Origin: Nakamurella multipartita DSM 44233
GTDB taxonomy: Bacteria; Actinomycetota; Actinomycetes; Mycobacteriales; Nakamurellaceae
Reading direction: 5' to 3'
Length of the DNA stretch: 64,000 bases
Assembly (NCBI RefSeq): GCF_000024365.1
Contig: NC_013235.1
Span: forward strand, 3,968,001-4,032,000
Part shown: positions 41,352 to 64,000 of the stretch, in pieces
How the letters are laid out: each line of letters starts with the position of its first letter
Position numbering within the stretch: the first letter of the stretch is position 1
Notes under the pieces: model-generated
The model's database searches: none
Seen by the model: the letters and a program-made list of their open reading frames with translations, nothing else
Told to the model about the DNA's origin: nothing
Program-made: the position numbers and the translations under genes

Positions 41352-41500
41352 GAAGGCTGGTTGTGTCAGGTTTGAGTGGCCCCGCCGGAGCAGGGAATCG
41401 CAGGTTTGAGTGGCCCCACCTGCGACTCTCCGGGCAGGTTCTGTCAGGTTTGGGTGGCCCCACCTGATCGTCGTCGGAGGCGACGACGTCAGGAGGAGAC

Positions 41501-43171
41501 GTGAGGTCCAAGGTCATGCTGTTCGAACAGATCCGGCGGGATTCCCGGGTGGAGGGCTTGTCGGTGCGGGCGTTGGCCAAGCGCCACCATGTGCACCGTC
41601 GAACGGTGCGGCAAGCGTTGGCGTCGGCGGCGCCGCCGGAGCCGGCCCGGCGCAGGTGGCAGTCCCGCAAGATCGACCCGTTCGTGACCGCGATCGACGC
41701 AATGTTGCGGTCGGATCTGACGGCCCCGCGCAAGCAGCGACACACCACGGTGCGGATCCTGGACCGGTTGGTCGAGGAGCATCAGGCGACCGGGTTGTCG
41801 TATTCGACGCTGCGGGCCTATGTCGCCCAGCGGCGGCGGGAGATCTGGGCTGAGGCGGGGGGCCGGCCGTTGGCGGAGGTGTTCGTCCCGCAGACGCATC
41901 AGCCGGCCGCCGAGGGTGAGGTCGACTTCGCCGAACTGTGGGTGGATCTGCCCGCCGGTCGGACGAAGTGCTACCTGTTCACGATGTGGTTGTGCTTCTC
42001 GGGTCGGTCGGTGCATCGGGTGTTCCCGACTCAGTCGCAGGAGGCGTTCCTCGAGGGTCATATCGCCGCGTTCACCGAGCTGGGTGGTGTTCCAACGGTG
42101 CACGTGAAGTACGACAACCTCAAGTCCGCGGTCTCGGCCGTGCTGTTCGGCACCGACCGGCGGCGGACCGAGAACGAGCGGTGGGTGCTGTTCCGTTCGC
42201 ACTACCAATTCGATGGGTTCTATTGCCTGCCCGGCGTCCACGGAGCCCACGAAAAGGGCGGTGTGGAGGGCGAAGGCGGCCGGTTCCGGCGCAACCATCT
42301 GGTCCCGGTGCCGAAGGTGAAATCGTTGGCCGAGCTGAATGTTCGGCTGGCCAAGGCGGACCGGGCCGATGACCACCGGCGGATCAACGGCCGGGTGCGC
42401 ACCGTGGGCGAGATGTTCGCCATCGAGCAGCCCCTGCTCCGGCCGTTGCCGACCGAGGTGTTCGAACCGGGCCTGTCGTTGAACCCGCGGGTCGACCGGC
42501 ACGCCCGGATCATGGTGCGTAACTGTCAGTACTCGGTGCCAGCCAAGTTCATCGGACGCCGGGTCCGGGTCCACCTCCGGGCGGGTGAGGTGATCGTGTT
42601 GGATGGCCGGACCGTCATCGCCACCCACGAGCGGTCGGGCCGTAAGGGCGCCCAGGTGTTGGACCTGGATCACTACCTGGAGGTGCTCAAGTACAAACCC
42701 GGCGCCCTGCCCGGGGCGACCGCCCTGGTCCAGGCTCGCGCCTGCGGGGCGTTCACCAGTGCGCACGAGGCGTTCTGGGCGGCGGCCCGCAAGGCTCACG
42801 GCGACGCCGCCGGCACCCGGGAACTGATCGACGTGCTGCTGCTGCATCGGCACATGCCGGCGGTCGACGTCGTCGCCGGGTTGACCGCCGCCCTGCGAGT
42901 CGGCGCGACCCAGGCCGATGTGGTGGCCGTGGAAGCCCGCAAACAGCAGCGTGGGGCCACGCAACCCGAGCATCCCGTCGGTCAGGACGACAGTGCCGGG
43001 CAGCGGGTGGTCAGTCTGACCGAGCGGCGGCTGTCCGACCCGACCGCGGTGATCGCCGGGCTGCCGCCGGATTCCCGGCCGTTGCCGTCGGTCGACCGTT
43101 ACGACGAGCTGCTCACCCGCCGCAAGACCGCGCCGCCGGCGGCGGACCTGTCGAAAGGCAACGTGTCATGA
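41501..43171 (+). CDS. istA: IS21 transposase IstA
   Basis: The 556-residue DDE transposase has an N-terminal HTH (LSVRALAKRHHVHRRTVRQAL), the catalytic region starting EVDFAELWVDLPAGRTKCYL, Asp in VHVKYDNLKSAV and Glu in HEKGGVEGEGGRFRRNHLVP. The start at 41501 follows GGAGAC. Its stop overlaps istB (ATGA). It appears intact and is very similar to the istA of the second IS21 in this window. Confidence 0.95.
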   Translation: MRSKVMLFEQIRRDSRVEGLSVRALAKRHHVHRRTVRQALASAAPPEPARRRWQSRKIDPFVTAIDAMLRSDLTAPRKQRHTTVRILDRLVEEHQATGLSYSTLRAYVAQRRREIWAEAGGRPLAEVFVPQTHQPAAEGEVDFAELWVDLPAGRTKCYLFTMWLCFSGRSVHRVFPTQSQEAFLEGHIAAFTELGGVPTVHVKYDNLKSAVSAVLFGTDRRRTENERWVLFRSHYQFDGFYCLPGVHGAHEKGGVEGEGGRFRRNHLVPVPKVKSLAELNVRLAKADRADDHRRINGRVRTVGEMFAIEQPLLRPLPTEVFEPGLSLNPRVDRHARIMVRNCQYSVPAKFIGRRVRVHLRAGEVIVLDGRTVIATHERSGRKGAQVLDLDHYLEVLKYKPGALPGATALVQARACGAFTSAHEAFWAAARKAHGDAAGTRELIDVLLLHRHMPAVDVVAGLTAALRVGATQADVVAVEARKQQRGATQPEHPVGQDDSAGQRVVSLTERRLSDPTAVIAGLPPDSRPLPSVDRYDELLTRRKTAPPAADLSKGNVS

Positions 43172-43959
43172 CCGCACCGATTCGCCGCCGCCGCGGCCTG
43201 ACCGAGCAGGCCGCGTCCGCGGCGATCGACACGGCCTGCCGGCAACTACGCCTGCCGACCGTCCGCGGGCTGGTCACCGACATGGTCACCGTCGCGGAGA
43301 AGGAACAACTCACCTACCAGGGATTCCTCGCCGAGCTACTCCTGGCCGAATGCGACGACCGGGCCCGTCGCCGCTCTGTCCGCCGGGTCAAGGCGGCCGG
43401 CTTTCCACGAGAGAAGTGGCTGGCCGATTTCGACTTCGACGCGAACCCGAACATCAACTCGGCGACCATCCACACCCTGGCCGGATGCGGCTGGATCCGC
43501 GCCGGGCAACCGTTATGCCTGATCGGAGACTCCGGCACCGGCAAGTCGCATCTGCTGATCGGGTTGGGCACCGCCGCCGCGGAGAACGGGTTCCGGGTGA
43601 AATACACCCTGGCCACCAAGCTGGTGAACGAACTCGTGGAGGCCGCCGACGACAAGATCCTGGCCAAGACCATTGCCCGATACGGACGGGTTGATCTTCT
43701 CTGCATCGATGAACTCGGCTATATGGAACTCGACAAACGCGGCGCGGAGCTACTTTTCCAGGTTCTCACCGAACGGGAAGAGAAGAACTCCGTGGCCATC
43801 GCCTCCAACGATTCCTTCTCCGGCTGGACAAAAACGTTCACCGACGCCCGCCTCTGCGCCGCGATCGTCGACCGGCTCACCTTCGGCGGGAACATCATCG
43901 AGACCGGAACCGACTCCTACCGGCTGGCCCGGACCAAGGCCCAACAAGCCGCCAGCTAA
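43168..43959 (+). CDS. istB: IS21 helper ATPase IstB
   Basis: The 263-residue AAA+ ATPase assists IstA in target selection. Walker A is GDSGTGKSHLLIGLG, Walker B VDLLCIDELGYMELD, with sensor region VAIASNDSFSGW. The start overlaps istA. It is intact and full-length. Confidence 0.95.
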   Translation: MTAPIRRRRGLTEQAASAAIDTACRQLRLPTVRGLVTDMVTVAEKEQLTYQGFLAELLLAECDDRARRRSVRRVKAAGFPREKWLADFDFDANPNINSATIHTLAGCGWIRAGQPLCLIGDSGTGKSHLLIGLGTAAAENGFRVKYTLATKLVNELVEAADDKILAKTIARYGRVDLLCIDELGYMELDKRGAELLFQVLTEREEKNSVAIASNDSFSGWTKTFTDARLCAAIVDRLTFGGNIIETGTDSYRLARTKAQQAAS

Positions 43960-44066
43960 GACCCATCAACGTCAAGCTCCAGGCGGGGATCCGCTAAACC
44001 AACCTCGCCCACGGGTGGAGCCAACCAAACCTGACATGGTGGGGCCAACCAACGTTGACAAACCCA

Positions 44067-48843: not shown

Positions 48844-49130
48844 TGCTGGTCTTTCGCGAACCAGGCCGCCACTTTTTTTGCGAACTCAGCCTCCATGCGC
48901 AGTCGAGGTACTTCTTTGCGGAGTCGTTCGAGTTCGGCGCGCTCGTCCTCGTCGAGCGGCCGCTGCGATTCCTCGCCGTCGTCGCGGGCCTTCTTCACCC
49001 ATTTCCCTAACGTCATTTCGTGGACACCGATGCTCCGGGCGATCTCAGCGATCGAATCGCCCGAATCGAGCACCAACCTTACGGCGTGGCCCTTGTATTC
49101 ATCGGTGAATCGGCGACGTGTCGAACCCAC
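48840..49130 (-). CDS. IS3-family transposase OrfA
   Basis: The 96-residue HTH protein begins RRRFTDEYKGHAVRLVLDSG, then SIAEIARSIGVHEMTLGKWV, with a C-terminal leucine-zipper-like ELERLRKEVPRLRMEAEFAK. It ends just after the A7 slippery run. It is the DNA-binding half of the transposase. Confidence 0.92.
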   Translation of the reverse strand: MGSTRRRFTDEYKGHAVRLVLDSGDSIAEIARSIGVHEMTLGKWVKKARDDGEESQRPLDEDERAELERLRKEVPRLRMEAEFAKKVAAWFAKDQQ

Positions 49131-49200
49131 TCATTCTCCTCAGGTCCCATGACCCGGGCAAGCCATCTGCCTGTCTACGAAACCCGATACGGTCTACAGC

Positions 49201-51826
49201 TCGATGAGTTCCTGCTCGCCCGCGCGTTGGAGCACGACGCGCCCACGCTGCTGCTGCAGATGGCCTGCGACTGGCTACGCGGGGAACACATCGTCCGGCC
49301 GGCGGTCGACGCGCTGGCCCGGCGGGTCGCGTCCGCGCGTGATGCCGCCCGCGCGGAGACCTATCACCGTCTCCGGCCGTTGCTGTCCCCGCCTCGGCCG
49401 CGACAGCTCGACGGGCTGCTCGACGTCGACCCGGATCTGGGGATCACCCGGCTGACCTGGCTGCGCCGCGGCGCGACGGCCGCGACCCCGGAGGTGCTCA
49501 AGGCCGAGATCGACAAGCTGGAATTCCTGCGTGGGCACGGCGCCGACACCCTGGACCTTTCCCGGCTGCCGGCCGGCCGGCGCCGGCTGCTGGCCGAGAT
49601 CGGCCGGCGTTCCACCAACCAAGCCCTGCAGCGTGCCGATGTCGACCGCCGGCATCCGGTGCTGCTGGCCACGCTCGCCGAGACCTACGTCGAGGTGCTC
49701 GACGAGCTGGTCCAACTGCTCGACCAGGCCCTGGCCGGCGCGGAGTCCCGCGCCCGGCACGAGCTGTCGCAGCGGCTGGTCGACCGCGCGAAGGCCGAAG
49801 CCGACCGCGCCCGGCTGCTCGATGAGATCCTCGACGTGCTGGCCGATCCGAGCGTCGCCGACGCCGCCGCCGGCCGCCTGGTGCGCCAACGGGTCGGTAT
49901 GCCGCGTCTGGTCGCTGCGCGCCGGCCCGCCGGGGAACGCGAGCAGCGCGACCACGGCCACTTCGATCTGCTCGCCGCCCGCTACAAATACCTGCGCACC
50001 TTCACCCCAGCCGTGATTGCGTCGCTGCCGCTGACCGGCAACACCGCCAGCCCGGCCGTCAGGTCCCTGCTCGACGCAGTCGCCGTGCTGCGGGAGCTGA
50101 ACACGGCCGGACGAAGCATGGTGCCCGACGACGCGGCCACGGCGGAGGCGACGTCATTCGTCCCGGCCCGCTGGCGCGACTACCTGGACGCGACCCGCGG
50201 ACAGGGCCGCGGCGCGGCCTACCGGCACTACTGGGAACTCGCCGTGCTGTACGGGGTGCAGGCCGGGCTGCGTTCGGGTGACCTGTGGGTGCCCGGCTCA
50301 CGCCGGTACACCGACCCCGCCGCCCTGCTGTTGCCGGTCGAGCGGTGGGCCGTCCAACGCGACGACTTCTGCACCCTCACCGGAGCCGACGCGAACCCGC
50401 ACCGGCAACTCGACCGACTCGACGGCGAACTGCACTCGGCGATCGCCTCTCTGGAGGCCGTGCTGGCCGACCCCTCGGCCGAAGGCCTGGCCCGCCTCGG
50501 CGACGACGGTGATCTGATCGTGTCGCCGCTCGCCGCTGAGCAGGTCCCGGCCGCAGCGGACGAACTCGCCGCGGCGTGTGCCACCCGGCTACCGCGCGTG
50601 CAGCTGCCGGCACTGCTGATCGAGGTCGACCAGATGACCGGGTTCAGCCAGGAGTTCACCCATGCCGGCGGCGCCCAGCCCCGCAACCCTGATCTGCGCC
50701 GCAACCTGTACGCGGCGTTGATCACCTACGCCTGCAACCTCGGCTACGCCGGGATGGCCGACGCCTCCGGCATCTCCGAAGACCAACTGGCCTGGACCTC
50801 CCAGTGGTACCTGCGGCAAGACACGCTGCGCGCAGCAAACACCCGGCTGGTCAACGCCCACCACGCGAATCCACTCGCTGCCCTGTGGGGCGGCGGCACC
50901 CTGTCCTCGTCCGACGGGCAACGGTTCCCGCAGCGCGGCCGCAGCCTCACCGCCCGCGCCCTGTCCCGGTACTTCCTCGACGAGGGCACCACCACTTACA
51001 CCCACGTCTCCGATCAACACTCCACGTACGGCACCAAGGTCATCCCGACGACCTGGCGCGAAGCCGTCGCCGTGCTGGACGAGATCTTCGGCAACCCCAC
51101 CGATCTGCCGCTCGGCGAGCACACCGTCGACACCGCCGGCCAAACGCTGGCGACGTTCGCGATCTTCCACCTCGCCGGGTTGCAGTTCTCCCCACGCATC
51201 CGCGACATCGGCCGCCTACAGCTCTACCGCCTCGGCGCAGCATCGACCTGGCGCGCCCGCTACCCGCACGCCGGACCGCTGCTCGGCCAACCGATCCAGA
51301 CCCAGCTGATCGCCGAGCACTGGAACGACATGCTCCGCCTGGTGGGCTCGATGAAGTTCGGGCACACCACCGCCAGCCTGCTCATCGCCAAGCTGCACGC
51401 CAGCAGTCGGCAATCCAGCCTGGCCAGGGCGCTGCACGAGTACGGCCGGCTGATCCGCACGATCTACGTCTGCCGTTACGTCGCCGACGAAGAACTCCGT
51501 CGCCGGGTGCGGCGTCAGCTGAACAAGGGCGAGAGCCTGCACGCGCTGCGCCGCGACCTGTTCTTCGCCCACCAAGGCCACGTCCGCCGACGGCACCTCG
51601 ACGACCAGATCGACCAGGCCCTGTGCCTGACCCTGGTGACCAACGCCTGCGTGCTGTGGACCACCACCTACCTCGCCGACGCGCTCGATGCCCTCCGCAT
51701 GGAAGGACATGACGTCGACGACGAGATCGCCGCCCACCTCACCCCGCGCAGCACGACCACATCAACTTCTACGGCACGTATTCCTTCGATCTCGACGCCG
51801 AACTACGCCGCGAAGGACACCGGCCA
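49201..51826 (+). pseudogene. tnpA: Tn3-family transposase TnpA, main fragment
   Basis: This is the bulk of TnpA (about 870 codons), including the DDE catalytic region: LPALLIEVDQMTGFSQEFTH with the first Asp, the Tyr-Thr-His-Val-Ser-Asp-Gln segment (TTYTHVSDQHSTYGTKVIP), and EYGRLIRTIYVCRYVADEEL. At about 51742 one base is missing: the expected tail QHDHINFYGTYSFDLDAELR lies in the next frame. It is then interrupted at 51826 by an IS256 element; the last codons (PLHVTA, stop) lie at 53221-53241. Two further lesions therefore follow the IS3 insertion. Confidence 0.9.
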
Positions 51827-53214
51827 GGGACTGTCCAACAAACGGTGTTTCTGGCCTGACACGCTGGGCGTTGCTCGGCGGGGAAGGTGCCGTGATGACC
51901 GCGACACTCAATGGTGTGCCTAGGAAGAAGCCGGTCGAGGAGTCGGCCGAACAGCGGGCGGCTGCGGAGCTGGTGCGGCTGGCCAAGGAACAGGGCTTGT
52001 CGTTGACGGGCCCGGACGGGTTGCTCAAGCAGCTGACCAAGGCGGTCCTGCAGACCGCTCTGAACGAGGAGATGACCGAGCACCTCGGGTATGAAAAGCA
52101 CGACCCGGCCGGTGCCGGGTCGGGCAACATCCGCAACGGCACCCGGGCCAAGACGGTCCTGACCGAGGCTGCCGGCACGGTTGAGATCGACGTGCCGCGC
52201 GATCGGGCCGGCACGTTCGAGCCGCAGATCGTGCGCAAGCGGCAGCGCCGGTTGTCCGGTGTCGATGAGGTGGTGTTGTCGTTGTACGCCAAGGGTTTGA
52301 CCACCGGGGAGATCAGCGCCCACTTCGCCGAGATCTACGGGGCGTCGGTGTCCAAAGAGACCATCAGCCGGATCACCGACAAGGTCATCGAGGAGATGAA
52401 CGAATGGGCGGTGCGGCCCCTGGACGAGATCTACGCCGCGGTGTTCATCGACGCCATCGTGGTCAAGGTTCGGGACGGGCAGGTCGGGAACCGCCCGTTC
52501 TACGCCGCGATCGGGGTCAGCCTGGACGGGGAACGGGACATCCTGGGGTTGTGGGCCGGGACCGGCGGTGAGGGCGCCAAGTTCTGGATGAGCGTGCTCA
52601 CCGACCTGCGGAACCGGGGTGTGAAAGACACCTTCTTCGTAGTCTGCGACGGGCTCAAGGGACTGCCCGAGGTGGTGACCAACGTCTGGCCCCAGGCCAT
52701 CGTGCAGACGTGCATCATCCATCTGATCCGCAACACGTTCCGGCTGACTTCCCGCAGGTACTGGGATGAGCTCAAACGCGACGTCAAACCGATCTACACC
52801 GCGGTGAATGCCACGGCGGCGCGGGCTGCGTTCGATGACCTGACCGAAAAATGGGGTGCCCGGTACCCGGCGGTGATCCGGCTGTGGGACAACGCCTGGG
52901 CCGAGTTCATCCCGTTCTTGGACTACGACGTCGAGATCCGCAAGGTGCTGTGCAGCACCAACGCGATCGAGAGCTTGAACGCCCGCTACCGGCGAGCGAT
53001 CAAGGCCCGCGGACACTTCCCGTCCGAACAAGCAGCGATGAAGTGCCTGTACCTGGTCACCAGATCACTGGACCCCACCGGCGCCGGCCGGGCACGATGG
53101 ACGATGCGATGGAAACCGGCCCTGAACGCCTTCGCGATCACCTTCAGCGACCGATTCCCAGCAGCAGAGACCTACTAATGGAAACCGCCGGAAACACCGT
53201 TCATGCGATAGACC
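51827..53214. mobile_element. IS256-family element B in tnpA
   Basis: The ends share AACGGTGTTTC and GGC inverted (51842-51855 and 53189-53200). It is flanked by the 9-bp repeat CACCGGCCA at 51818-51826 and 53215-53223. It contains one plus-strand transposase. Removing it restores the final codons of tnpA. Confidence 0.87.
51895..53178 (+). CDS. IS256-family transposase
   Basis: The 427-residue Mutator-type transposase has DDE blocks AVFIDAIVVKVRDGQVGNRP, FFVVCDGLKGLPEVV and CSTNAIESLNARYRRAIKAR, and TCIIHLIRNTFR. It starts at ATG 51895, after GGGAAGG some distance upstream. It is full-length and distinct from the IS256 copy at 14863. Confidence 0.95.
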   Translation: MTATLNGVPRKKPVEESAEQRAAAELVRLAKEQGLSLTGPDGLLKQLTKAVLQTALNEEMTEHLGYEKHDPAGAGSGNIRNGTRAKTVLTEAAGTVEIDVPRDRAGTFEPQIVRKRQRRLSGVDEVVLSLYAKGLTTGEISAHFAEIYGASVSKETISRITDKVIEEMNEWAVRPLDEIYAAVFIDAIVVKVRDGQVGNRPFYAAIGVSLDGERDILGLWAGTGGEGAKFWMSVLTDLRNRGVKDTFFVVCDGLKGLPEVVTNVWPQAIVQTCIIHLIRNTFRLTSRRYWDELKRDVKPIYTAVNATAARAAFDDLTEKWGARYPAVIRLWDNAWAEFIPFLDYDVEIRKVLCSTNAIESLNARYRRAIKARGHFPSEQAAMKCLYLVTRSLDPTGAGRARWTMRWKPALNAFAITFSDRFPAAETY

Positions 53215-53414
53215 CACCGGCCACTCCACGTGACCGCCTGACCAACCCAGCAAGATCACCTGAGTGTGTGAGGTTTGGGTGGCCCCACTTGTCCGGGGAA
53301 TGTCGTTGTTGAGTGGCCCCACCTGCGACTCGCCGGGCAGCTTGTGTCAGGTTTGAGTGGCCCCACCTGATCGTGATCGGCATCTGCGGATGCCGACCGG
53401 TCAGGAGGACTGGG

Positions 53415-55109
53415 ATGAGGTCCAGAGTGGTGCTGTTCGAGCAGATCCGACGTGATTCCCGGATCGAGGGCCTGTCGGTGCGGGCGCTGGCCAAACGTCA
53501 CCATGTTCATCGGCGCACGGTGCGCCAAGCGTTGGCGTCCGCGACTCCACCGCCGCCGGCCCGCCGGGTGTGGAAGCGAACGAAGATCACCCCGTTCGCG
53601 GCGGCGATCGATGACATGTTGCGGGCGGATCTGACGGCCCCACGGAAGCAGCGCCACACGGTGGTACGGATCCTGGACCGGTTGGTCGACGAACACGGCG
53701 CGACGGATCTGACCTATGGGACGGTCCGGGCGTATGTGGCGCAGCGGCGCCCGGAGATCAACGCCGAGGCCGGGCGGCCGGTCGCTGAGGTCTTCATCGC
53801 ACAAACGCATCAGCCCGGGGCGGAGGCCGAGGTCGACTTCGCCGAGTTGTGGGTGGACCTGCCGGCCGGGCGGACCAAGTGCTACTTGTTCACGCTGCGG
53901 CTGTGTTTCTCCGGTCGGGCGGTCCACCGGGTGTTCGCGACCCAGTCGCAGGAGGCGTTCCTGGAAGGTCACATCGACGCGTTCACCGAGCTGGGCGGGA
54001 TCCCGGTCAAGCACATCAAGTACGACAACTTGAAGTCCGCAGTCACGACGGTGCTGTTTGGGAACAACCGACGGCGGACCGAGAACGACCGATGGGTGCT
54101 GTTCCGGTCCCATTACCAGTTCGACTCGTTCTACTGCATGCCCGGCGTGGACGGCGCCCACGAGAAGGGTGGAGTCGAGGGTGAGGGTGGCCGATTCCGC
54201 CGCAACCACCTCGTCCCGGTCCCGAAAGTGGCCTCGTTGGCCGAGCTGAACGTCCGGCTCGCGAAGGCGGACCGGGCCGATGATCACCGCCGAATCAGCG
54301 GACAGGTCCGCACCGTCGGTGACATGTTCGCCATCGAGCAACAGATGCTGCACCCGTTGCCCGTGGAGGTGTTCGAACCGGGCCTGACGATGAACCCGCG
54401 GGTCGATCGGCACGCCCGGATCATGGTCCGCAACGTGCAGTACTCGGTCCCGGCCCGGTTCATCAACCGGCGGGTCCGGGTCATCTTGCGGTCCAACGAG
54501 GTGATCGTGTTCGACGGTCGCACCCAGCTCGTCCGGCACGAACGGTCCAGCCGGAAAGGCTCCCAGGTGCTGGTCCTGGATCACTACCTGGAGGTGCTGC
54601 GGTTCAAGCCCGGCGCCCTGCCCGGGGCGACGGCATTGGTCCCGGCCCGGGCGAACGGGTCGTTCACCACCGTGCACGAGGCGTTCTGGGCGGCCGCCCG
54701 GAAAGCTCACGGCGACGCGGCGGGCACCCGGGAACTGATCGAGGTGTTGTTGTTGCACCGGCACATGACCCATGCCGATGTCGTCGCCGGTCTGCAGGCC
54801 GCCCTCACGGTCGGCGCGAGCAACGCCGACGTCGTCGCTGTCGAGGCCCGCAAACACCAGACCGCAGCGGGTGGGGCCGGCCAACGGCACCATCCCGTCG
54901 ATCAGAACGCGGGCGTTGAGCAACGTGTTGTCAGCCTGACCGAACGCCGGCTCGCCGATCCGGCTGCGGTCATCGCCGGGCTACCGACAGACTCCAGGCC
55001 GTTGCCGTCCGTCGCTGAGTACGACGAGCTGCTGATCCGGCGCCGCATCACACCGACCGAGACCACCACCACCATTGATGTCGCCGCGCAGAAGGGGAAC
55101 GTGTCATGA
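53415..55109 (+). CDS. istA: IS21 transposase IstA
   Basis: The 564-residue DDE transposase, starting at ATG 53415, is very similar throughout to the IstA at 41501 (RVVLFEQIRRDSRIEGLSVR; EVDFAELWVDLPAGRTKCYL; HEKGGVEGEGGRFRRNHLVP). Its stop overlaps istB by ATGA. It appears intact, so this cargo-bearing IS21 could be mobile. Confidence 0.95.
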   Translation: MRSRVVLFEQIRRDSRIEGLSVRALAKRHHVHRRTVRQALASATPPPPARRVWKRTKITPFAAAIDDMLRADLTAPRKQRHTVVRILDRLVDEHGATDLTYGTVRAYVAQRRPEINAEAGRPVAEVFIAQTHQPGAEAEVDFAELWVDLPAGRTKCYLFTLRLCFSGRAVHRVFATQSQEAFLEGHIDAFTELGGIPVKHIKYDNLKSAVTTVLFGNNRRRTENDRWVLFRSHYQFDSFYCMPGVDGAHEKGGVEGEGGRFRRNHLVPVPKVASLAELNVRLAKADRADDHRRISGQVRTVGDMFAIEQQMLHPLPVEVFEPGLTMNPRVDRHARIMVRNVQYSVPARFINRRVRVILRSNEVIVFDGRTQLVRHERSSRKGSQVLVLDHYLEVLRFKPGALPGATALVPARANGSFTTVHEAFWAAARKAHGDAAGTRELIEVLLLHRHMTHADVVAGLQAALTVGASNADVVAVEARKHQTAAGGAGQRHHPVDQNAGVEQRVVSLTERRLADPAAVIAGLPTDSRPLPSVAEYDELLIRRRITPTETTTTIDVAAQKGNVS

Positions 55110-55897
55110 ATCAGCCACTACGTCGACGTCGGGGACTGACCGAGCAGGCCGCCGCCGCGGCGATCGATCAGGCTTGCCGGCAACTCCGGCTACCGACGGT
55201 CCGCGGCCTGGTCCCGGACCTGGCCGTCGTCGCGGAGAAGGAACAACTCACCTACCAAGGTTTCCTGGCCGAGCTGTTGTTGTCCGAGTGCGACGACCGG
55301 AACCGGCGCCGCTCGATCCGCCGGGTCAAAGCCGCCGGGTTTCCCCGTGAGAAGTGGCTGGCCGATTTTGATTTCGAGGCGAACCCGAACATCAACCCGG
55401 CCACGATCCACACCCTGGCGAACTGCAACTGGATCCACACCGGGCAACCGCTGTGCCTGATCGGTGACTCCGGCACCGGCAAGAGCCACCTGTTGATCGC
55501 ATTGGGCACCATCGCCGCGGAGAACGAGTACCGGGTGAAATACACGCTCGCGACCAAGCTGGTCAACGAGCTCGTCGAGGCCGCCGACGACAGGGTCCTG
55601 GCCAAGACGATCGCCCGCTACGGCCGTGTCGACCTGCTTTGCATCGACGAACTCGGCTATATGGAACTCGACAAGCGAGGCGCCGAACTCCTGTTCCAAG
55701 TGCTGACCGAACGCGAGGAGAAGAACTCCGTCGCCATCGCCTCCAACGAGTCCTTCTCCGGTTGGACGAAGACGTTCACCGACCCGCGGCTCTGCGCCGC
55801 GATCGTGGACCGGCTCACCTTCGGTGGCAACATCATTGAGACCGGCACCCAATCCTTCCGGCTCGCCCACACCAAAGCCGCCCAACTCGCCAGCTGA
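55106..55897 (+). CDS. istB: IS21 helper ATPase IstB
   Basis: The 263-residue AAA+ protein has Walker A GDSGTGKSHLLIALG and Walker B VDLLCIDELGYMELD. It is the same length as the other IstB, to which it is closely similar. It is followed, 15 bp on, by the convergent end of the CDF transporter gene. Confidence 0.95.
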   Translation: MNQPLRRRRGLTEQAAAAAIDQACRQLRLPTVRGLVPDLAVVAEKEQLTYQGFLAELLLSECDDRNRRRSIRRVKAAGFPREKWLADFDFEANPNINPATIHTLANCNWIHTGQPLCLIGDSGTGKSHLLIALGTIAAENEYRVKYTLATKLVNELVEAADDRVLAKTIARYGRVDLLCIDELGYMELDKRGAELLFQVLTEREEKNSVAIASNESFSGWTKTFTDPRLCAAIVDRLTFGGNIIETGTQSFRLAHTKAAQLAS

Positions 55898-55912
55898 CCC
55901 ACTGCTGCCGGG

Positions 55913-56647
55913 TCACCGGCAGCAATCGCACCCGCCGCCACAGCCGGCCACCTCACCGGCGGCCGCGATCGGAGCGGAAACGGCTCGATCAGCCGGTGTC
56001 GGGGCGCAGCAGGCGTCGCCCTTCCACGCATCCCGGCCTTCTTTGACGGCCACCGCGGCGATGACCAGCGCGGCGATCGGGTCCGCCCAGGACCAGCCCA
56101 GCAGCGAGTTCAACGCCAAACCGACCAGCAGCACCCCCGACAGGTAGGTGCACAACAGTGTCTGCTTGGAGTCCGCCACCGCGGACCGTGAGTTGAGCTG
56201 CCGGCCGGCGCGGCGCTGCCCCCAGGACAGCCAGGGCATCACCAATAGGCTCACCGCGGCAAGTATCAGCCCGACCGTGGAATGGCGAGCCTGCGTGTCA
56301 CCGAACAGCGAGGTGACCGCGTCAAAGGCGACATAGGCGGCGAGCGCGAAGAACGACCAGGCGATGATCCGCAGCGCGGTCCGTTCCCGGGCCTGCGGGT
56401 CTTTCGCGGCGAACTGCCACGCCACCGCGGCCGCCGATGTCACTTCGATGACCGAGTCCAGACCGAACCCGATCAGCGCCGACGACGACGCGACCGTGCC
56501 GGCGCTGATCGCAACGACCGCCTCGATCACGTTGTAGGCGATCGTGGCCGTCACGAACCACCGGATCCGCCGCGACAACACCGCTCGACGAGCCGCATCC
56601 GGACCCGCCGACGGCAACGACAACGGCACCGTGGCCATCAGCAGCAC
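55913..56647 (-). CDS. Cation diffusion facilitator (CDF) family metal transporter
   Basis: The 244-residue protein has about five to six membrane helices (FVTATIAYNVIEAVVAISAG, LIGFGLDSVIEVTSAAAVAW, IIAWSFFALAAYVAFDAVTS, VGLILAAVSLLVMPWLSW, LSGVLLVGLALNSLLGW, DPIAALVIAAVAVKEG). Acidic residues in helix 2 (LDSVIE) and helix 5-6 (ADP) fit the metal site. The usual C-terminal cytoplasmic domain is replaced by a short Cys-rich tail (DACCAPTP... CGGGCDCCR). It overlaps the end of the ArsR gene, so it is co-expressed with it. Confidence 0.85.
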   Translation of the reverse strand: MLLMATVPLSLPSAGPDAARRAVLSRRIRWFVTATIAYNVIEAVVAISAGTVASSSALIGFGLDSVIEVTSAAAVAWQFAAKDPQARERTALRIIAWSFFALAAYVAFDAVTSLFGDTQARHSTVGLILAAVSLLVMPWLSWGQRRAGRQLNSRSAVADSKQTLLCTYLSGVLLVGLALNSLLGWSWADPIAALVIAAVAVKEGRDAWKGDACCAPTPADRAVSAPIAAAGEVAGCGGGCDCCR

Positions 56648-56964
56648 CCATCAGAGTCGACCGCGCAATGCGCCGGGTCGACCGCGAGGACCACCCCAAG
56701 CAGGTCCGTCAACGCGTGCCCAAGCCTGCCGTCAGCCAGCTCATACCGGGTGCGCCGGCCCTCCGGCACCGCGACCACCAACCCGCAACCACGCAGACAC
56801 CCAAGATGGTTCGACAGACTTTGACGCGAAACCCCGAGAAGCTCAGCCAGTTCCGCCGGATAACCCGGCGTTTCCCGCAACGCCAACAACACCCGCACCC
56901 GCGTCGGATCCGACAGCGCGTGCCCGAACCGGGCCAACACCGGGGCATGCGAGAGAAGTTCCAC
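56638..56964 (-). CDS. ArsR-family metal sensor, CmtR-like
   Basis: The 108-residue winged HTH has ALSDPTRVRVLLALRETPGY, LLGVSRQSLSNHLGCLRGCG and a wing EGRRTRYELAD. Cys56, Cys60 and Cys100 match the ligand set of Cd/Pb sensor CmtR (Cys57, Cys61, Cys102). The C-terminus DSDGCC adds two more Cys. It should repress itself and the coupled CDF gene until Cd or Pb binds. It is cargo of IS21 element B. Confidence 0.9.
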   Translation of the reverse strand: MELLSHAPVLARFGHALSDPTRVRVLLALRETPGYPAELAELLGVSRQSLSNHLGCLRGCGLVVAVPEGRRTRYELADGRLGHALTDLLGVVLAVDPAHCAVDSDGCC

Positions 56965-57085
56965 GCATCAGACAGTACATCACGCGATGGATTCATCCAA
57001 CGATTGACAGCCCCCGGCCGGCATCCGCCTGGGGCCATCCCAACCTGACGAGCTGGGGCCACCCAGCCTTGACAAACTCAATCAC

Positions 57086-57123
57086 CAAAACACCCAGATC
57101 CGTTCCGTTGCTACGGCGACCCG
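57086..57123 (-). repeat. Right terminal inverted repeat of the Tn3 element
   Basis: Read inward from 57123 it begins CGGGTCGCCGTAGCAACGGA, matching the left repeat at 29 of 38 positions. It is followed by target copy GGCAG at 57124-57128. IS21 element B is inserted at its inner edge. Confidence 0.85.
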
Positions 57124-57184
57124 GGCAGTGGCTGCGGCCCTGGACCGGCAGGAAGGTACCCGTCGACCGTTGGTCCGATGCGGC

Positions 57185-57628: not shown

Positions 57629-58363
57629 TCACCATCCTCGACGTTTGGGCCGGGAGCCGACCGGGTTGCCGGGGCGGCCGGCGTCCCGGGACCGGTAGAC
57701 GATGTAGGGGCGGAACAGGTACGCGACCGGCGCGCTGAACGCGTGGACCAGCCGGGTGAACGGCCAGAGAGCGAACAGCGCCAGGCCGATGATCGCGTGC
57801 AGCTGGTAGCTCAGCGGGGCACCGGCCATCGCCGCGCCGTCCGGCCGCAGGAGGAAGATCGACCGGAACCAGACCGACACCGTCTCGCGGTAGTTGTACG
57901 GCTCCCCGACGATGCCCGAGCCGACCATGGTGGTGGCCAGGCCGGCGACGATCGCCAGAACCAGCACCAGGTACATCAGCTTGTCGTTGCGGGTGGTGGC
58001 CATGAACACCGGACCCTTCGTGCGCCGCCGGTACACCAGGATGATCACCCCGGCCAGCGTGCAGACGCCGGCGATCGTGCCGAGCAGTACCGCCTGCACG
58101 TGGTAGGCCGTCTCACTCAGACCGACCGCGTGGGTCCAGCTCTCGGGAATCACCAGGCCGATGACGTGGCCGACGATGACCACCAGGATGCCGAAGTGGA
58201 ACAGCGGGCTGCCGATCCGCAACAGCTTGCTCTCGTACAGCTGGGAGGAGCGGGTGGTCCAGCCGAACTTGTCGTAGCGGTAGCGCCACCAGAGCCCGAC
58301 CGCCAGGATCGCGATCGTCACGTACGGCACGATCGACCAGAACAGCGCCCCGGCGCTCATCAC
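57629..58363 (-). CDS. narI: Respiratory nitrate reductase gamma subunit
   Basis: The 244-residue cytochrome b membrane anchor has five helices (LFWSIVPYVTIAILAVGLWW; PLFHFGILVVIVGHVIGLVI; VQAVLLGTIAGVCTLAGVII; YLVLVLAIVAGLATTMVG; LHAIIGLALFALWPFTRLVH). Haem ligands are His in helices 2 and 5. It oxidises quinol and passes electrons to NarH. The ATG overlaps the narJ stop (ATGA). Confidence 0.94.
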   Translation of the reverse strand: MMSAGALFWSIVPYVTIAILAVGLWWRYRYDKFGWTTRSSQLYESKLLRIGSPLFHFGILVVIVGHVIGLVIPESWTHAVGLSETAYHVQAVLLGTIAGVCTLAGVIILVYRRRTKGPVFMATTRNDKLMYLVLVLAIVAGLATTMVGSGIVGEPYNYRETVSVWFRSIFLLRPDGAAMAGAPLSYQLHAIIGLALFALWPFTRLVHAFSAPVAYLFRPYIVYRSRDAGRPGNPVGSRPKRRGW

Positions 58364-59073
58364 AGTGCCTTCCCAGCGGCAAATCTCGGGTTCGGGCCGA
58401 GCAGCAGGTCGACCGGGCCGGACCGGGGACCGGCCGGGGCGGCCGGCCCGGCCAGCGGGTACGGGTCGAGGCCGACCGCCTCCGCCGGCGGACCCTGCAT
58501 GATCAACCGGCGGGCCAGCAGCAGGTCCTGCTCGCCGGGCGGCGGTAGCGTCGCGGCCACCGCCTGCACGACGTCCGCGTACGCGGAGTCCATGGCCTGC
58601 AACCCCTCGTGCAGCAGGTCGATCGACGTCCGGTGGTCGGCGAGCAGCCGGTACCCGGCGTCCTCGTCGACGGTGGCGGCGAACTCGAGCACCACCGCCA
58701 GATGGTCGGGCAGCTCACCGGCCGGCGGGACCGCCCCGACCGCCCGGTAGGCCGACGCGAACTCCAGCAGGGCCACGCCGCGGCCGCGGGTGTCACCGGC
58801 CGTGTAGTACGTCAGGAACAGCGTGCGCCGGCGGCGCCAGTCGAACGTGTCGACGTACCGGATGGCGGCGTCGACCGTCGGCTGCTCGGCGAGCCGGTCC
58901 ACGCTGCGACGCAACGGCTCTCCGGCGGCCGGCGGCAGCGCCCGGATCGCCGCGCGAACCAGGGCCAACCGGTCGACCCAGGCCTCGTCGGGGTAGGCCA
59001 GCAGCAGGGACGCGGACTGCCAGATCACCCGGCGGTCGGCGGTTCGGTCGGTCTCTCGGCGGCGCAGTCTCAT
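58360..59073 (-). CDS. narJ: Nitrate reductase assembly chaperone
   Basis: The 237-residue all-helical TorD-like chaperone inserts the molybdenum cofactor into NarG. Segments include ASLLLAYPDEAWVDRLALVR, the hallmark YVDTFDWRRRRTLFLTYYTA, and LPDHLAVVLEFAATVDEDAG. The ATG at 59073 overlaps the narH stop, and its own stop overlaps narI. Confidence 0.92.
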   Translation of the reverse strand: MRLRRRETDRTADRRVIWQSASLLLAYPDEAWVDRLALVRAAIRALPPAAGEPLRRSVDRLAEQPTVDAAIRYVDTFDWRRRRTLFLTYYTAGDTRGRGVALLEFASAYRAVGAVPPAGELPDHLAVVLEFAATVDEDAGYRLLADHRTSIDLLHEGLQAMDSAYADVVQAVAATLPPPGEQDLLLARRLIMQGPPAEAVGLDPYPLAGPAAPAGPRSGPVDLLLGPNPRFAAGKAL

Positions 59074-60755
59074 GCCTGCTCCTCGCGTCCGGTCGCCCGG
59101 GGCGAGCCGGGCCGCGGGGTGAACATCGACTCCGGGGTCCCCTTGCCGTCCCAGTTGAGCAGGTTGACCCGGGACCGGTGGCCCCCGCGCACGCCGAGCT
59201 CCTCGGTGGTCTGCCGTTCCCGCAACGCCTGGAACGTCTCCACCGCGACCGGTACCGGTGACCCGCTGGCCTCGCCGAACGGGCCGGAGTCGTACATGCC
59301 CGGCCCCCCGTCGAAGTCCAGCGCGCAATCGGTCACCGACTCCTCCAGCCGATGGCCCTGGGCCGCGTAGGCGGTCGGGATGACGTACCGCTGCTCGTAC
59401 TTGGCGATCGCCAGCAGCCGGTACATCTCGTACATCGATTCCTCGCTCATCCCCACCGAGGCCGGGATCGAGGGGTCCGGCTCGCGTTCCAGGTTGTGGT
59501 CACGCATGTAGGCGCGCATGGCCGCCAGCGTGCGCAGCACCCGGTCGACCGGCGCGGTGTCGCCGGCGGTGAACAACCCGGCCAGGTACTCGATCGGGAT
59601 GCGCAACGCCGAGATCGCACCGAACAGGTTGTCCACGTCCTCGCCGTCGTGCGCCTCCCGGCTGATCGCGTCGACGACCGGCGACAGCGGCGGCACGTAC
59701 CAGACCATCGGCATGGTGCGGTATTCCGGATGCAGCGGCAGCGCCACCTGGTACTGCTTGATCAACGCGTACACCGGCGATCGGCGCGCGGCCTCCAACC
59801 ACTCGTCGGTGACGCCGTTCTCCCGGGCGGCGGCGGCCACGGCCGGGTCGGACGGGTCCAGCAGCAGGTCCAACTGGGCCTGGTACAGGTCCTGCTCGCG
59901 TTCGGTCGAGGCGGCGGCCAGCACCTTGTCGGCGTCGTACAGCAGCAGCCCGAGGTAGCGCAGCCGGCCCACACAGGTCTCGGAACACACGGTGGGTAAA
60001 CCCACCTCGATCCGCGGGTAGCAGAACGTGCACTTCTCGGCCTTGCCGGTCCGGTGGTTGAAGTACACCTTCTTGTAGGGGCAGCCGGACACGCACATCC
60101 GCCAGCCGCGGCACTTGTCCTGGTCGACCAGCACGATGCCGTCCTCGGCCCGCTTGTACATCGCCCCGGACGGGCACGACGCCACGCACGACGGGTTCAG
60201 GCAGTGCTCGCAGATTCGGGGCAGGTAGAACATGAACGCCTGCTCGAGTTCCAGCTTGATCTTGTCGCTGACCTGGGCGAGCACCGGGTCACCGGCCAGG
60301 ATCTCCGGAGAACCGCCGAGGTTGTCGTCCCAGTTCGCCGACCAGGTCACCTTCATCGGCTCGCCGGAGAGCAGGCTGCGGGGCGGGGCCGTCGGCATGT
60401 GCTCGCCCAGCGGCGCGGTCGTCAGGTTCTCGTAGTCGTAGGTCCAGGGCTCGTAGTAGTCCTCGATCGAGGGCATCTTCGGGTTCGAGAAGATGTTCAG
60501 CAGCTTCTTGAACCGCCCGCCGGCCCGCAGCCGGAGCCGGCCGCGCGAGTCGCGGACCCAGCCACCCTCCCAGCGGTCCTGATTCTCGTAGGTGCGCGGA
60601 TAGCCCTGCCCGGGGCGGGTTTCCACGTTGTTGAACCACACGTACTCGACCCCGGACCGGTTGGTCCAGGCCTGCTTGCAGGTCACCGAGCAGGTGTGGC
60701 AGCCGATGCACTTGTCCAGGTTCATCACCATGGCCAGTTGCGCCATCACACGCAT
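59070..60755 (-). CDS. narH: Respiratory nitrate reductase beta subunit
   Basis: The 561-residue Fe-S subunit has cysteine clusters CIGCHTCSVTCKQAW, CEHCLNPSCVASCPSG, CRGWRMCVSGCPYK (Trp in place of a Cys, as in NarH for the [3Fe-4S] centre) and CTFCYPRIE. It carries electrons from NarI to NarG. The start overlaps the narG stop by one base (TGATG). Confidence 0.95.
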   Translation of the reverse strand: MRVMAQLAMVMNLDKCIGCHTCSVTCKQAWTNRSGVEYVWFNNVETRPGQGYPRTYENQDRWEGGWVRDSRGRLRLRAGGRFKKLLNIFSNPKMPSIEDYYEPWTYDYENLTTAPLGEHMPTAPPRSLLSGEPMKVTWSANWDDNLGGSPEILAGDPVLAQVSDKIKLELEQAFMFYLPRICEHCLNPSCVASCPSGAMYKRAEDGIVLVDQDKCRGWRMCVSGCPYKKVYFNHRTGKAEKCTFCYPRIEVGLPTVCSETCVGRLRYLGLLLYDADKVLAAASTEREQDLYQAQLDLLLDPSDPAVAAAARENGVTDEWLEAARRSPVYALIKQYQVALPLHPEYRTMPMVWYVPPLSPVVDAISREAHDGEDVDNLFGAISALRIPIEYLAGLFTAGDTAPVDRVLRTLAAMRAYMRDHNLEREPDPSIPASVGMSEESMYEMYRLLAIAKYEQRYVIPTAYAAQGHRLEESVTDCALDFDGGPGMYDSGPFGEASGSPVPVAVETFQALRERQTTEELGVRGGHRSRVNLLNWDGKGTPESMFTPRPGSPRATGREEQA

Positions 60756-63700
60756 CAGTACTGCACCTCCTGCGAGCGCCGGCGAACCATGGTGACCTCG
60801 TCACGCTGGTTCCCGGTCGGCCCGAGATAGTTGAACGCGAAGGACATCTGGGCGTAGCCGCCGGCCAGATGGGTGGGCTTGACCAGCAACCGGGTCAGCG
60901 AGTTGTGAATGCCGCCCCGGGTGCCGGTGGTCTCGGTCAGCGGCATGTCGATGGTCCGTTCCTGGGCGTGGTGCACGTAGACCACCCCCTCGGGCATCCG
61001 GTGGGACACGATGGCCCGCAACACCATCACCCCGTTGCGGTTGACCGCCTCGACCCAGTCGTTGTCGGCCACCCCGATCTTGGCGGCGTCGGCGCCGCTG
61101 ATCCACATGGTCGGCCCGCCCCGGGACAGCGAGAGCATGAACAGGTTGTCCTGGTACTCGGAATGGATGGACCATTTGGAGTGCGGGGTCAGGTACCGCA
61201 CGCACAGGCCCAGACCCTCGGTAGTGTCGCCGATCCGGGGCTCGCCGAACAGGCCCTGGATGTCCAGCGGCGGCCGGAACACCGGCAACTGCTCGCCCAG
61301 CTCCTCCATCCAGTCGTGATCGACGTAGAAGTGCATGCGGCCGGTGAGGGTGTGCCAGGGCTTGAGCTCCTCCACGTTCACGGTGAACGGCGCGTAGCGC
61401 CGGCCGCCGGTCTCGCTGCCCGACCACTCGGGGCTGGTGATCACCGGGACCGGGCGGGCGGCGGTGTCGGCGTAGCTGATCCGCTTCTCCTCGCTGCCCT
61501 CGGCCAGGTGCACCAGCGGGCGTCCGGTCCGCCGCTCCAGCTGCCGGAAACCCTCGACCGCCAGCCGGCCGTTGGTCGTGCCGGCCAGGGCCAGGATGGT
61601 GTCGGCCATCTTCACCGCGGTGTCGATGGCCGGGCGTCCCGCTCCGGCCCCGTGATCCATCACTCCGTGCCGCGCGGCCAGCTCGCCGACCTCCCGATCT
61701 GGGATGACGGTGACCGCCTTGGTCGTCACCCCGAGGGTGTCCACCAGCGGACCCAACGTCTCCCACTGCTGGGCCAGCGCCGGGTAGTCGCGGGTGACGA
61801 CGGCGATCTGCCCCATCGTCCGGCCCGGCACCGGCACCTCCCCGGTGGCCCGCCAGTCCCGTTGCGTGCCGTGCGGGTAGGCGGTCTCCCCCGGGGTGTC
61901 GTGCTGCAGCGGCGTCATCACCACGTCCTGCCGCACGCCCAGATGAGTGGCCGCCAGCCGGGAGAAGACCCGGGCGATGGTGTGGAACGCGTCGAAGTCC
62001 GACCGGGTCTCCCACGGCGGGTCGATGGCCGGGCTGAACGCGTGCACGTACGGGTGCATGTCGGTGGAGGACAGGTCGGCCTTCTCGTACCAGGTGGCCG
62101 CGGGCAGCACGACATCCGAGAGCAGGGTGGTCGAGGTCATCCGGAAGTCCAGCGACAGCATCAGATCGAGCTTGCCCGCCGGTGTCCGGTCGACCCAGGT
62201 GACGTCCCGCGGCCGCAACGGCTCCGGTGTCGGGTCGGCCCGCAGGTTCGAGGTCGTCCCGAGCAGGTGCCGCAGGAAGTACTCGTTGCCCTTGCTGGAC
62301 GAGCCGAGCAGGTTGGCCCGCCAGGCGGTGAGCACCCGCGGCCAGTTGCCCGGGTCGTCCGGGTCGGTGACGGCCAGCTTGAGCTGTCCGGACGCCAGCT
62401 GCGCGGCGACGTACTGCGGCGCCGGCACTCCGGCGGCTGCCGCCTCGTCGGCCAGATCCAGGCTGCTGCGGTCGAATTGGGGGAAGAACGGCATCCACCC
62501 CATGGCCACGGATGCGGCCAGCACGTCCATGGTGTGCATCCCGGCGAACCGGCCCCGGCCCAGCGGCGAGGCCAGGGCGTCGGCCCGGTACCCGTCGTAG
62601 CGCCACTGGTCGGTGTGCGCGTACCAGTAACCGGTGCCAATCATCTGCCGCGGCGGGCGCACCCAGTCGCTAGCCATCGCCATGGTCGCCCAACCGGTGA
62701 TCGGCCGGCACTTCTCCTGGCCGACGTAGTGGGCCCAGCCGCCACCGTTGCGACCCATCGACCCGGTCAGGATCAACATCGCCAGGATGGCCCGGTAGGT
62801 GGCATCGCCGTGGAACCACTGGCAGATCCCGGCGCCCATGATGATCATCGAGCGGCCGCCGGATTCCTCGGCGTTGCGGGCGAACTCGCGGGCCACCCGG
62901 ATCGCCTGGGCCGCGGACACCCCGGTGATCGGCTCCTGCCAGGCCGGCGTGTAGGGCTCGGCGGCGTCGTCGTATCCGGCCGGCCAGCTGCCCGGCAGCC
63001 CGGACCGGTGGACCCCGTACTGGGCCAGCATCAGATCGAACACCGTGCAGCACAGCCGGTCCCCCACCCGGCGCACCGGGACCCCGCGGGTGAGCACCGC
63101 CGCCCGGCCGTCCGGGGTGTCGAACCGGGTGAGCAGCACCGGCACCGACTCGCCGGGATCGGCCAGCACGGTCAGCTGCGGCACGACCCCGGCCAGGTCC
63201 AGGTTCCATTTGCCCACCCCCGAGTCCGTATAACGGAACCCGAGAGATCCGTGGGGCGCGACCACCTCGCCGGTGCGGCCGTCCACCAGGACCGGCTTGA
63301 AGGCCGCGCCTTCGGATTCGTCCCCGAGGTCGGCGGCGGTCAGGTTCTTGCCGGGCACGTAGGCCCCGTCCCGCTCCTCCAACGCGATCAGGAACGGCAG
63401 ATCGGTGTACTGCCGGACGTAGTCGACAAAGAACGGGGTGCGCTTCTCCACCAGGAATTCCCGCAGGATGACGTGCCCCATGGCCATGCCCAGCGCGCCG
63501 TCGGTGCCGGCCGCGCAGGGCATCCACTCGTCGGCGAACTTCGTGTTGTCGGCGTAGTCGGGACTGACCGTGACGACCTTGGTGCCGCGGTAGCGGACCT
63601 CGGCCATCCAGTGCGCGTCCGGGGTCCGGGTGACCGGGACGTTGGAGCCCCACAGCATGAGATAGGAGGCGTCCCACCAGTCCCCGGACTCGGGCACGTC

Positions 63701-64000
63701 GGTCTGATCGCCGAACACCTGCGGTGAGGCCACCGGCAGGTCGGCGTACCAGTCGTAGAACGAGGTCATCGCCCCGCCCATCAGCTCGACGAACCGGGAG
63801 CCGGCCGCGTGCGAGACCATGGACATGGCCGGGATCGGCGAGAAGCCGGCGATCCGGTCCGGCCCGTAGCGCTTGATGGTGTGCACGTGGGCGGCGGCGA
63901 TCATCTCGCACGCCTCGTCCCAGCTCACCCGGACCAGGCCGCCCTTGCCGCGGGCCTGCTGGTAGCGGCGGCGACGCTCCGGATCGTCCTGGATCTCGGC
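60755..64000 (-). CDS. narG: Respiratory nitrate reductase alpha subunit (5' end beyond window)
   Basis: This is the catalytic Mo-bis-MGD subunit, which reduces nitrate to nitrite. The visible 1081 codons lack the N-terminal [4Fe-4S] region. Motifs include VSWDEACEMIAAAHVHTIKR, the YADLPVASPQVFGDQTDVPE segment with its Mo-ligand Asp, MLWGSNVPVTRTPDAHWMAE and QSPVPE-like later elements. The coding sequence continues past 64000. It leads the operon narGHJI-hemerythrin, with every junction overlapping or close. Confidence 0.94.
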   Translation of the reverse strand, partial: AEIQDDPERRRRYQQARGKGGLVRVSWDEACEMIAAAHVHTIKRYGPDRIAGFSPIPAMSMVSHAAGSRFVELMGGAMTSFYDWYADLPVASPQVFGDQTDVPESGDWWDASYLMLWGSNVPVTRTPDAHWMAEVRYRGTKVVTVSPDYADNTKFADEWMPCAAGTDGALGMAMGHVILREFLVEKRTPFFVDYVRQYTDLPFLIALEERDGAYVPGKNLTAADLGDESEGAAFKPVLVDGRTGEVVAPHGSLGFRYTDSGVGKWNLDLAGVVPQLTVLADPGESVPVLLTRFDTPDGRAAVLTRGVPVRRVGDRLCCTVFDLMLAQYGVHRSGLPGSWPAGYDDAAEPYTPAWQEPITGVSAAQAIRVAREFARNAEESGGRSMIIMGAGICQWFHGDATYRAILAMLILTGSMGRNGGGWAHYVGQEKCRPITGWATMAMASDWVRPPRQMIGTGYWYAHTDQWRYDGYRADALASPLGRGRFAGMHTMDVLAASVAMGWMPFFPQFDRSSLDLADEAAAAGVPAPQYVAAQLASGQLKLAVTDPDDPGNWPRVLTAWRANLLGSSSKGNEYFLRHLLGTTSNLRADPTPEPLRPRDVTWVDRTPAGKLDLMLSLDFRMTSTTLLSDVVLPAATWYEKADLSSTDMHPYVHAFSPAIDPPWETRSDFDAFHTIARVFSRLAATHLGVRQDVVMTPLQHDTPGETAYPHGTQRDWRATGEVPVPGRTMGQIAVVTRDYPALAQQWETLGPLVDTLGVTTKAVTVIPDREVGELAARHGVMDHGAGAGRPAIDTAVKMADTILALAGTTNGRLAVEGFRQLERRTGRPLVHLAEGSEEKRISYADTAARPVPVITSPEWSGSETGGRRYAPFTVNVEELKPWHTLTGRMHFYVDHDWMEELGEQLPVFRPPLDIQGLFGEPRIGDTTEGLGLCVRYLTPHSKWSIHSEYQDNLFMLSLSRGGPTMWISGADAAKIGVADNDWVEAVNRNGVMVLRAIVSHRMPEGVVYVHHAQERTIDMPLTETTGTRGGIHNSLTRLLVKPTHLAGGYAQMSFAFNYLGPTGNQRDEVTMVRRRSQEVQY

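Follow-up and report, generated by a model that had tools for sequence, protein, structure and literature searches.

Insertion sequences (IS) are usually expected to carry only the genes for their own transposition. In transporter IS (tIS), described in a number of families, two IS ends enclose genes unrelated to transposition (PMC9330008, PMC7986276, PMC3129680), and the portions of these accounts available to us contain no IS21 example. No IS21 element with passenger genes was found described in the literature either, which is weak evidence of absence given the partial coverage of the search. Here we report on a 64,000-nucleotide stretch of Nakamurella multipartita DSM 44233 (the window; bases 3968001-4032000 of a single-contig 6.06-Mb genome), in which a 3820-bp IS21-family element, designated B, contains istA and istB followed by genes for a CDF metal transporter and an ArsR-family regulator resembling CmtR. 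Element B is very probably a transporter IS of the IS21 family, whose istAB genes and metal cassette insert as one unit. Like the described tIS, it has genes unrelated to transposition, the CDF and ArsR genes, between its two ends; unlike them, it belongs to a group in which many related IS21 elements use the same slot for different cargo. Since tIS are known and IS21 members were not found described among them, we regard element B as a well-bounded case of a known kind, whose family and recurring slot were not found described.

The boundaries of element B and its insertion as one unit are established by a copy of the target site that the genome also carries in uninterrupted form (C1:3964220-3964303), 3.7 kb before the window. 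Window positions 53215-53260 align to C1:3964220-3964265 (45/46) and positions 57081-57124 align to C1:3964260-3964303 (44/44), the six-base overlap of both alignments being a single ATCACC. The empty site joins base 53260 directly to base 57081; therefore, the metal genes arrived in the same insertion as istAB. The element starts with TGAG at 53261 and terminates with CTCA ending at 57080, its 28-base ends match at 22 of 28 positions, and the end score including the duplication is 28, compared with a maximum of 22 in 20 block-shuffled controls. As is typical of the IS21 family, element B has inverted repeats at its termini with further repeats inside, a short (6 bp) target duplication and overlapping frames, with istB starting within the end of istA and both proteins scoring above NCBIfam cut-offs. 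The order of genes is istA, istB, the CDF transporter and the CmtR-like regulator (Table 1). All four frames are open, and in an alignment of 52 rows IstA has near-invariant residues D175, D238, E284 and E289 (numbering from 53313). Translation of istA probably starts at the ATG that follows AGGAGG at 53415, the frame being open from a GTG at 53313. The sequence-only reading, made from the letters without database searches, had placed matching ends and the ATCACC duplication around these four genes and judged istAB to be intact; the termini, the score above controls, the open frames and the profile hidden Markov model matches bear it out on both points.

Table 1. Features of element B and related features of the window (window coordinates).
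Feature	Position	Strand	Basis or remark
Element B, IS21-family with passenger genes, 3820 bp	53261..57080	+	ends, duplication, empty site
Left copy of the 6-bp target duplication ATCACC	53255..53260	.	single copy at empty site
Left terminal repeat	53261..53288	+	followed by two more ...GTGGCCCCACCTG-type repeat copies, to about 53369
istA	53415..55109	+	NF033546, 219.4 bits vs cut-off 160
istB, helper ATPase	55106..55897	+	NF038214, 243.9 bits vs cut-off 200; GDSGTGKS motif
9-bp hairpin between istB and CDF stops	55903..55924	.	fold z -2.19; 8/200 shuffles fold at least as well
Passenger 2, CDF transporter	55913..56638	-	PF01545, 52.1 bits vs 26.6; alternative GTG start at 56647
Passenger 1, ArsR/SmtB regulator of CmtR kind	56638..56964	-	stop shares one base with CDF ATG
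Predicted promoter/operator region of passengers	56965..57005	-	TGTACTGT at 56972-56979
Right end, two repeats	57024..57080	+	terminal repeat 57053-57080; 43/57 identical to element A right end
Right copy of ATCACC	57081..57086	.	seen in sequence and at empty site
End of interrupted Tn3-family element (putative terminal repeat), target of B	57087..57124	-	empty-site identity stops at 57124
Element A, passenger-free sister IS21	41358..44066	+	duplication GAAGGC; same end type as B

Element A, located 9.2 kb upstream of element B, shares its end structure and encodes an IstB 88% identical to that of B, yet it contains istAB only, with 107 bp from the istB stop to the right end. Its own end score exceeds the control maximum by a small margin (26 versus 25). 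Three further A copies were found in the same genome, two of them carrying insertions flanked by 6-bp duplications and one truncated on its right side, and none contains the passengers of B. These comparisons uphold the earlier proposal that an element some 9 kb away has the same ends and only istAB and that the metal genes are an added cargo, since they lie inside the inserted unit and are absent from sister A. The insertions in the two interrupted copies (L136 and L138) are about 1.4-1.5 kb long, one near the istA start and the other inside istA; the outer duplications are CACGCG and TCCGCA. Comparison with element A also rules out a right end contributed by a different element, which the sequence-only reading had named as evidence that would overturn it. 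Both the right ends (Table 1) and the left ends (126/167 alignment columns) of A and B are 75% identical; because the right end has diverged from that of A as much as the left end, it is not foreign, and the empty site shows the joint arrival of both ends of B.

Both passenger genes are read towards istB. The CDF protein has a cation-efflux domain above the Pfam gathering score and falls below the NCBIfam superfamily cut-off (TIGR01297, 52.9 versus 82.35 bits). It has a Cys-rich tail, no C-terminal dimerisation domain was recognised in it, and a solved-structure search with it found no relatives; used as a query against its own genome, it gave one match, inside element B. The regulator carries Cys at positions 56, 60 and 100, the CmtR set noticed in the sequence-only reading. 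In CmtR itself, the Cys ligands are at 57, 61 and 102. Efflux of Cd, Pb or Zn is the likely function of the two passengers, and a specificity for Cd and Pb may be proposed.

The CDF/ArsR pair is widespread in actinobacteria without IS21. Among 117 loci, comprising the best 80 of at least 576 genome candidates (flanks up to 6 kb) and loci with 1.5 kb flanks, with a few loci counted twice, 103 had a CDF match, 99 of which also had ArsR. Matches to istAB occurred in two of the 103, namely B itself and L104, which has an IstB fragment about 4 kb away. Stand-alone pairs have the same gene order, strand and promoter motif as the pair in B but are not IS-enclosed at the loci seen. The motif, TGTAY..T, is found within the 60 bp preceding the regulator in 88 of 93 relatives, compared with 0.8% in random sequence of similar composition, and in 66 of 93 relatives it is accompanied 6-9 bases further up by one of a set of 8-base words, which were picked after viewing the same sequences. 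Element B carries TGTACTGT, and the position of the 8-base words is taken by TGAATCCA, which resembles them without belonging to the set. Since this predicted promoter region sits between the regulator and the right end of B, the cassette would bring its own promoter. At the opposite side of the cassette, only 15 bases separate the istB stop from the CDF stop, and the hairpin in this region is possibly a two-way terminator.

In the mechanism that we propose, IstA, assisted by IstB, would act at the outer ends, as expected from knowledge of IS21, and everything between the ends, the metal genes included, would insert as one 3820-bp unit with a 6-bp duplication. The CmtR-like repressor would occupy its own promoter region, which lies directly inside the right end, until released by a soft metal, e.g., Cd(II), Pb(II) or Zn(II), which the CDF pump would export. 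Element B would belong to an actinobacterial IS21 group whose members differ in the passengers held in the slot from istB to the right end. We infer, rather than observe, both the present activity of the element and the route by which its cargo was acquired.

The contents of this slot were compared among IS21 loci collected from the genome searches, one viral contig and plasmids (12 plasmid matches among the 40 matches listed of 315). Ends were searched as TG..CA repeats plus a duplication against block-shuffled controls, and a locus was considered resolved if it had a duplication of at least 6 bases and a score above all 20 controls. In a uniform run on 63 loci, 29 were resolved, representing 22 distinct elements. 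Five of them (A, L152, L161, L170 and L184) have 60-107 bp after istB, and the other 17 have 334-4500 bp. A recognised or annotated passenger is present in nine of these 17, including B and the mercury unit described below; the others encode a metallophosphoesterase (L146), a DUF3024 protein (L166), a pRiA4b ORF-3-like protein (a unit in genome G237), a DUF7945 protein (L182), mscL (L188), a helix-turn-helix protein (L190) and a GntR-type regulator (L199). In five elements (L141, L167, L168, L186 and L189), the slot holds open frames that either match no known family or carry a hypothetical annotation. The passenger claim is weakened for two elements with short tails lacking a recognised gene (L159 and L176) and for one with an IS630-like transposase inside, which may be a nested IS (L163). 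Many passenger frames had no match in Pfam, and ten passenger proteins had none in PADLOC. The cargo interpretation is widened from a single element to a group, passengers being frequent among the resolved relatives of this IS21.

The score is sensitive to the shuffles, as illustrated by L186, which equalled its control in an earlier run and exceeded it in the uniform run. L174, borderline in the earlier run, was left out of the uniform run, L140 lacks istB, and L206-L208 were left out of the analysis; of two loci found by the IstB scan of viral contigs, L146 was analysed and L147, a partial match, was left out. For eight candidates the passenger claim was weakened or not accepted, L148, L156, L165 and L169 having matching ends without a duplication, and L173, L179, L196 and L197 scoring not above their own controls in the uniform run. 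In L165, a different CDF with a dimerisation domain (L165:4974-6254) is located between istB and the matching right end (22/28) and may represent another metal cargo of independent origin. Matching ends likewise enclose a GNAT acetyltransferase in L169, a glyoxalase in L173 and a phosphotransferase in L179.

In a midpoint-rooted tree of IstA and IstB (52 rows after removal of duplicates and short matches; branch support left unexamined), element B groups as the sister of the A copies, and adjacent branches have different passengers. Two related elements of genome G016 are 87.6% identical in the IS part and do not share the tail. This distribution suggests that cargo was gained, lost or exchanged repeatedly in a single slot.

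Two relatives of element B are present at several sites, each site with its own duplication and with cargo units that are identical or nearly so. Genome G237 has four identical copies of a 4553-bp IS21 unit (L177, L178, L203 and L204), each with a different duplication (TGGGTG, ACTCTA, TGTGGG and ATCACT). The mercury unit, 7183 bp long, was found at four sites on Rhodococcus and Mycobacterium plasmids and in genome G194 (L195:4846-12028, L150, L201 and L202), each with its own duplication (CGAGAA, AGCGAG, TACTCA and ACATGAG). Similar to B, it has istAB, metal-resistance passengers with their own regulator, a right end and a 6-bp duplication; its IstB is 79% identical to that of B, and its cargo is different, with ccdA, redoxin, a hypothetical gene, merB, merA and a MerR regulator gene following istAB. 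The copies in G194 and R. fascians (plasmid NZ_CP015221.1) are identical at 7177 of 7183 bases, and that in M. dioxanotrophicus is 7173 bp long, in a record where istAB is not annotated. In Rhodococcus sp. NJ-530, 10.4 kb lie between the same mercury-unit ends, with site-specific integrase genes in the extra part. Within the genus of the window, genome G001 has a 2999-bp DUF7945 element twice, one copy with and one without a duplication. Two plasmids of Microbacterium sp. No. 7 share, at 100% identity, a 3911-bp unit with trpS (tryptophanyl-tRNA synthetase; L194:4879-8789 and L200:301-4211); neither site has a duplication, which weakens the unit as a passenger case, and it was not accepted. 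On balance, we lean towards viewing a large group of actinobacterial IS21 as a general gene-carrying platform, with one slot refilled by different self-contained cassettes (metal sensor and pump, mercury resistance, channel, regulators, enzymes) that move as units between plasmids, chromosomes and genera and that annotation would read as an IS21 and neighbouring genes.

The target of element B belongs to another mobile element. The duplicated six bases start 22 bases past the stop of a Tn3-family tnpA, and the sequence beside the duplication is probably the terminal repeat of this Tn3-family element. No second copy of the sequence at 57087-57124 was found within the window, and the left end of the window's Tn3-family copy was not located. 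The copy of this end at the empty site lacks both B and the IS256-family element (51827-53214) that interrupts tnpA in the window; comparison with the empty site gives the latter a 9-bp duplication (51818-51826 / 53215-53223). The right parts of two Tn3-family tnpA copies, at 49020-57124 and in L135 (C1:3961599-3964303), are separated by about 53-60 kb, with much of the window between them. Genes for nitrate reductase (gamma, delta, beta, alpha) are found at 57629-63928, and a second copy of 57631-59400, 95% identical, is located at C1:998006-999775.

Several observations weigh against reading element B as a mobile carrier of a Cd/Pb module. The element is a single copy in its genome, so a single insertion is all that documents its movement since it acquired the cargo. 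Other copies with the same ends and cargo at different loci, for which the sequence-only reading had advised a search, were found neither among the matches listed for genomes of the order nor on plasmids or phages. A query of istB plus passengers had matches at 1e-60 in 153 of 397 genomes of the order, and among the matches listed, with two candidates scored per genome, both parts occurred together only in the window's genome; none of 315 matching plasmid records covers 80% of B, and the one matching phage record matches in the IS part. Close IstB relatives are themselves uncommon (24 of 345 genomes of the class at 1e-100 and 12 of 377 genomes of the order at 1e-95, the window's genome included in both). 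In the uniform run, 34 of the 63 loci stayed unresolved, and because selection was by similarity to B, the proportion with passengers should not be read as a survey estimate. The regulator adds two points, as it misses the cut-off of the CmtR profile NF047906 (131.5 versus 150 bits) and its Cys100 is variable, being Cys in only 69 of 89 relatives. Both would fit a regulator that senses another metal, e.g., Ni(II) or Zn(II), in a cassette that is not a Cd/Pb module, as would an account of Frankia ArsR proteins, encoded, like the regulator of B, beside a CDF gene (CzcD) and grouped with CmtR and the nickel-linked SrnR (PMC4531530). We consider this possible but rather unlikely, because CmtR ranks first among the solved relatives of the regulator (E = 1.7e-28), far ahead of SrnR (3.8e-8), and Cys56 and Cys60, which align with the CmtR Cys pair, are Cys in 92 of 92 relatives.

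The remaining alternatives concern how the enclosed genes came to lie between the ends. A chance neighbourhood, with a plain IS21 beside a chromosomal CDF/ArsR pair and a right end from something else, could be imagined since the pair is common without IS21; it is exceedingly improbable, as the matching ends and the duplication enclose the pair, the right end is homologous to that of element A, and the empty site rules it out. The sequence-only reading would have fallen with a pair residing at this locus without IS21, and the empty-site copy carries no CDF/ArsR. A composite transposon shares with element B the IS-driven movement of enclosed genes but needs two flanking IS copies; as B has one istAB, this was rejected as its present structure. 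A composite origin is a different matter and compatible with a unit that moves as one now: two IS21 copies may once have flanked the metal genes, and one istAB and a solo right end may be what remained after deletions in which the left copy lost its inner end and the right copy most of its sequence. Such a history is in keeping with the 57 bp of IS-like sequence left on the right and with the other IS21 copies in the genome, some interrupted or truncated. Nevertheless, we find it doubtful, as no remnant of a second istAB lies beside the right end in the sequence read, and the same compact layout with other passengers recurs in many relatives.

Element B incorporates a metal-responsive efflux operon into an IS, and in at least two genera mercury resistance is found within a related IS21. 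If this pattern holds, many genes annotated beside IS21 in actinobacteria would be cargo, and the constant slot would make the capture, retention and exchange of genes by an IS testable.

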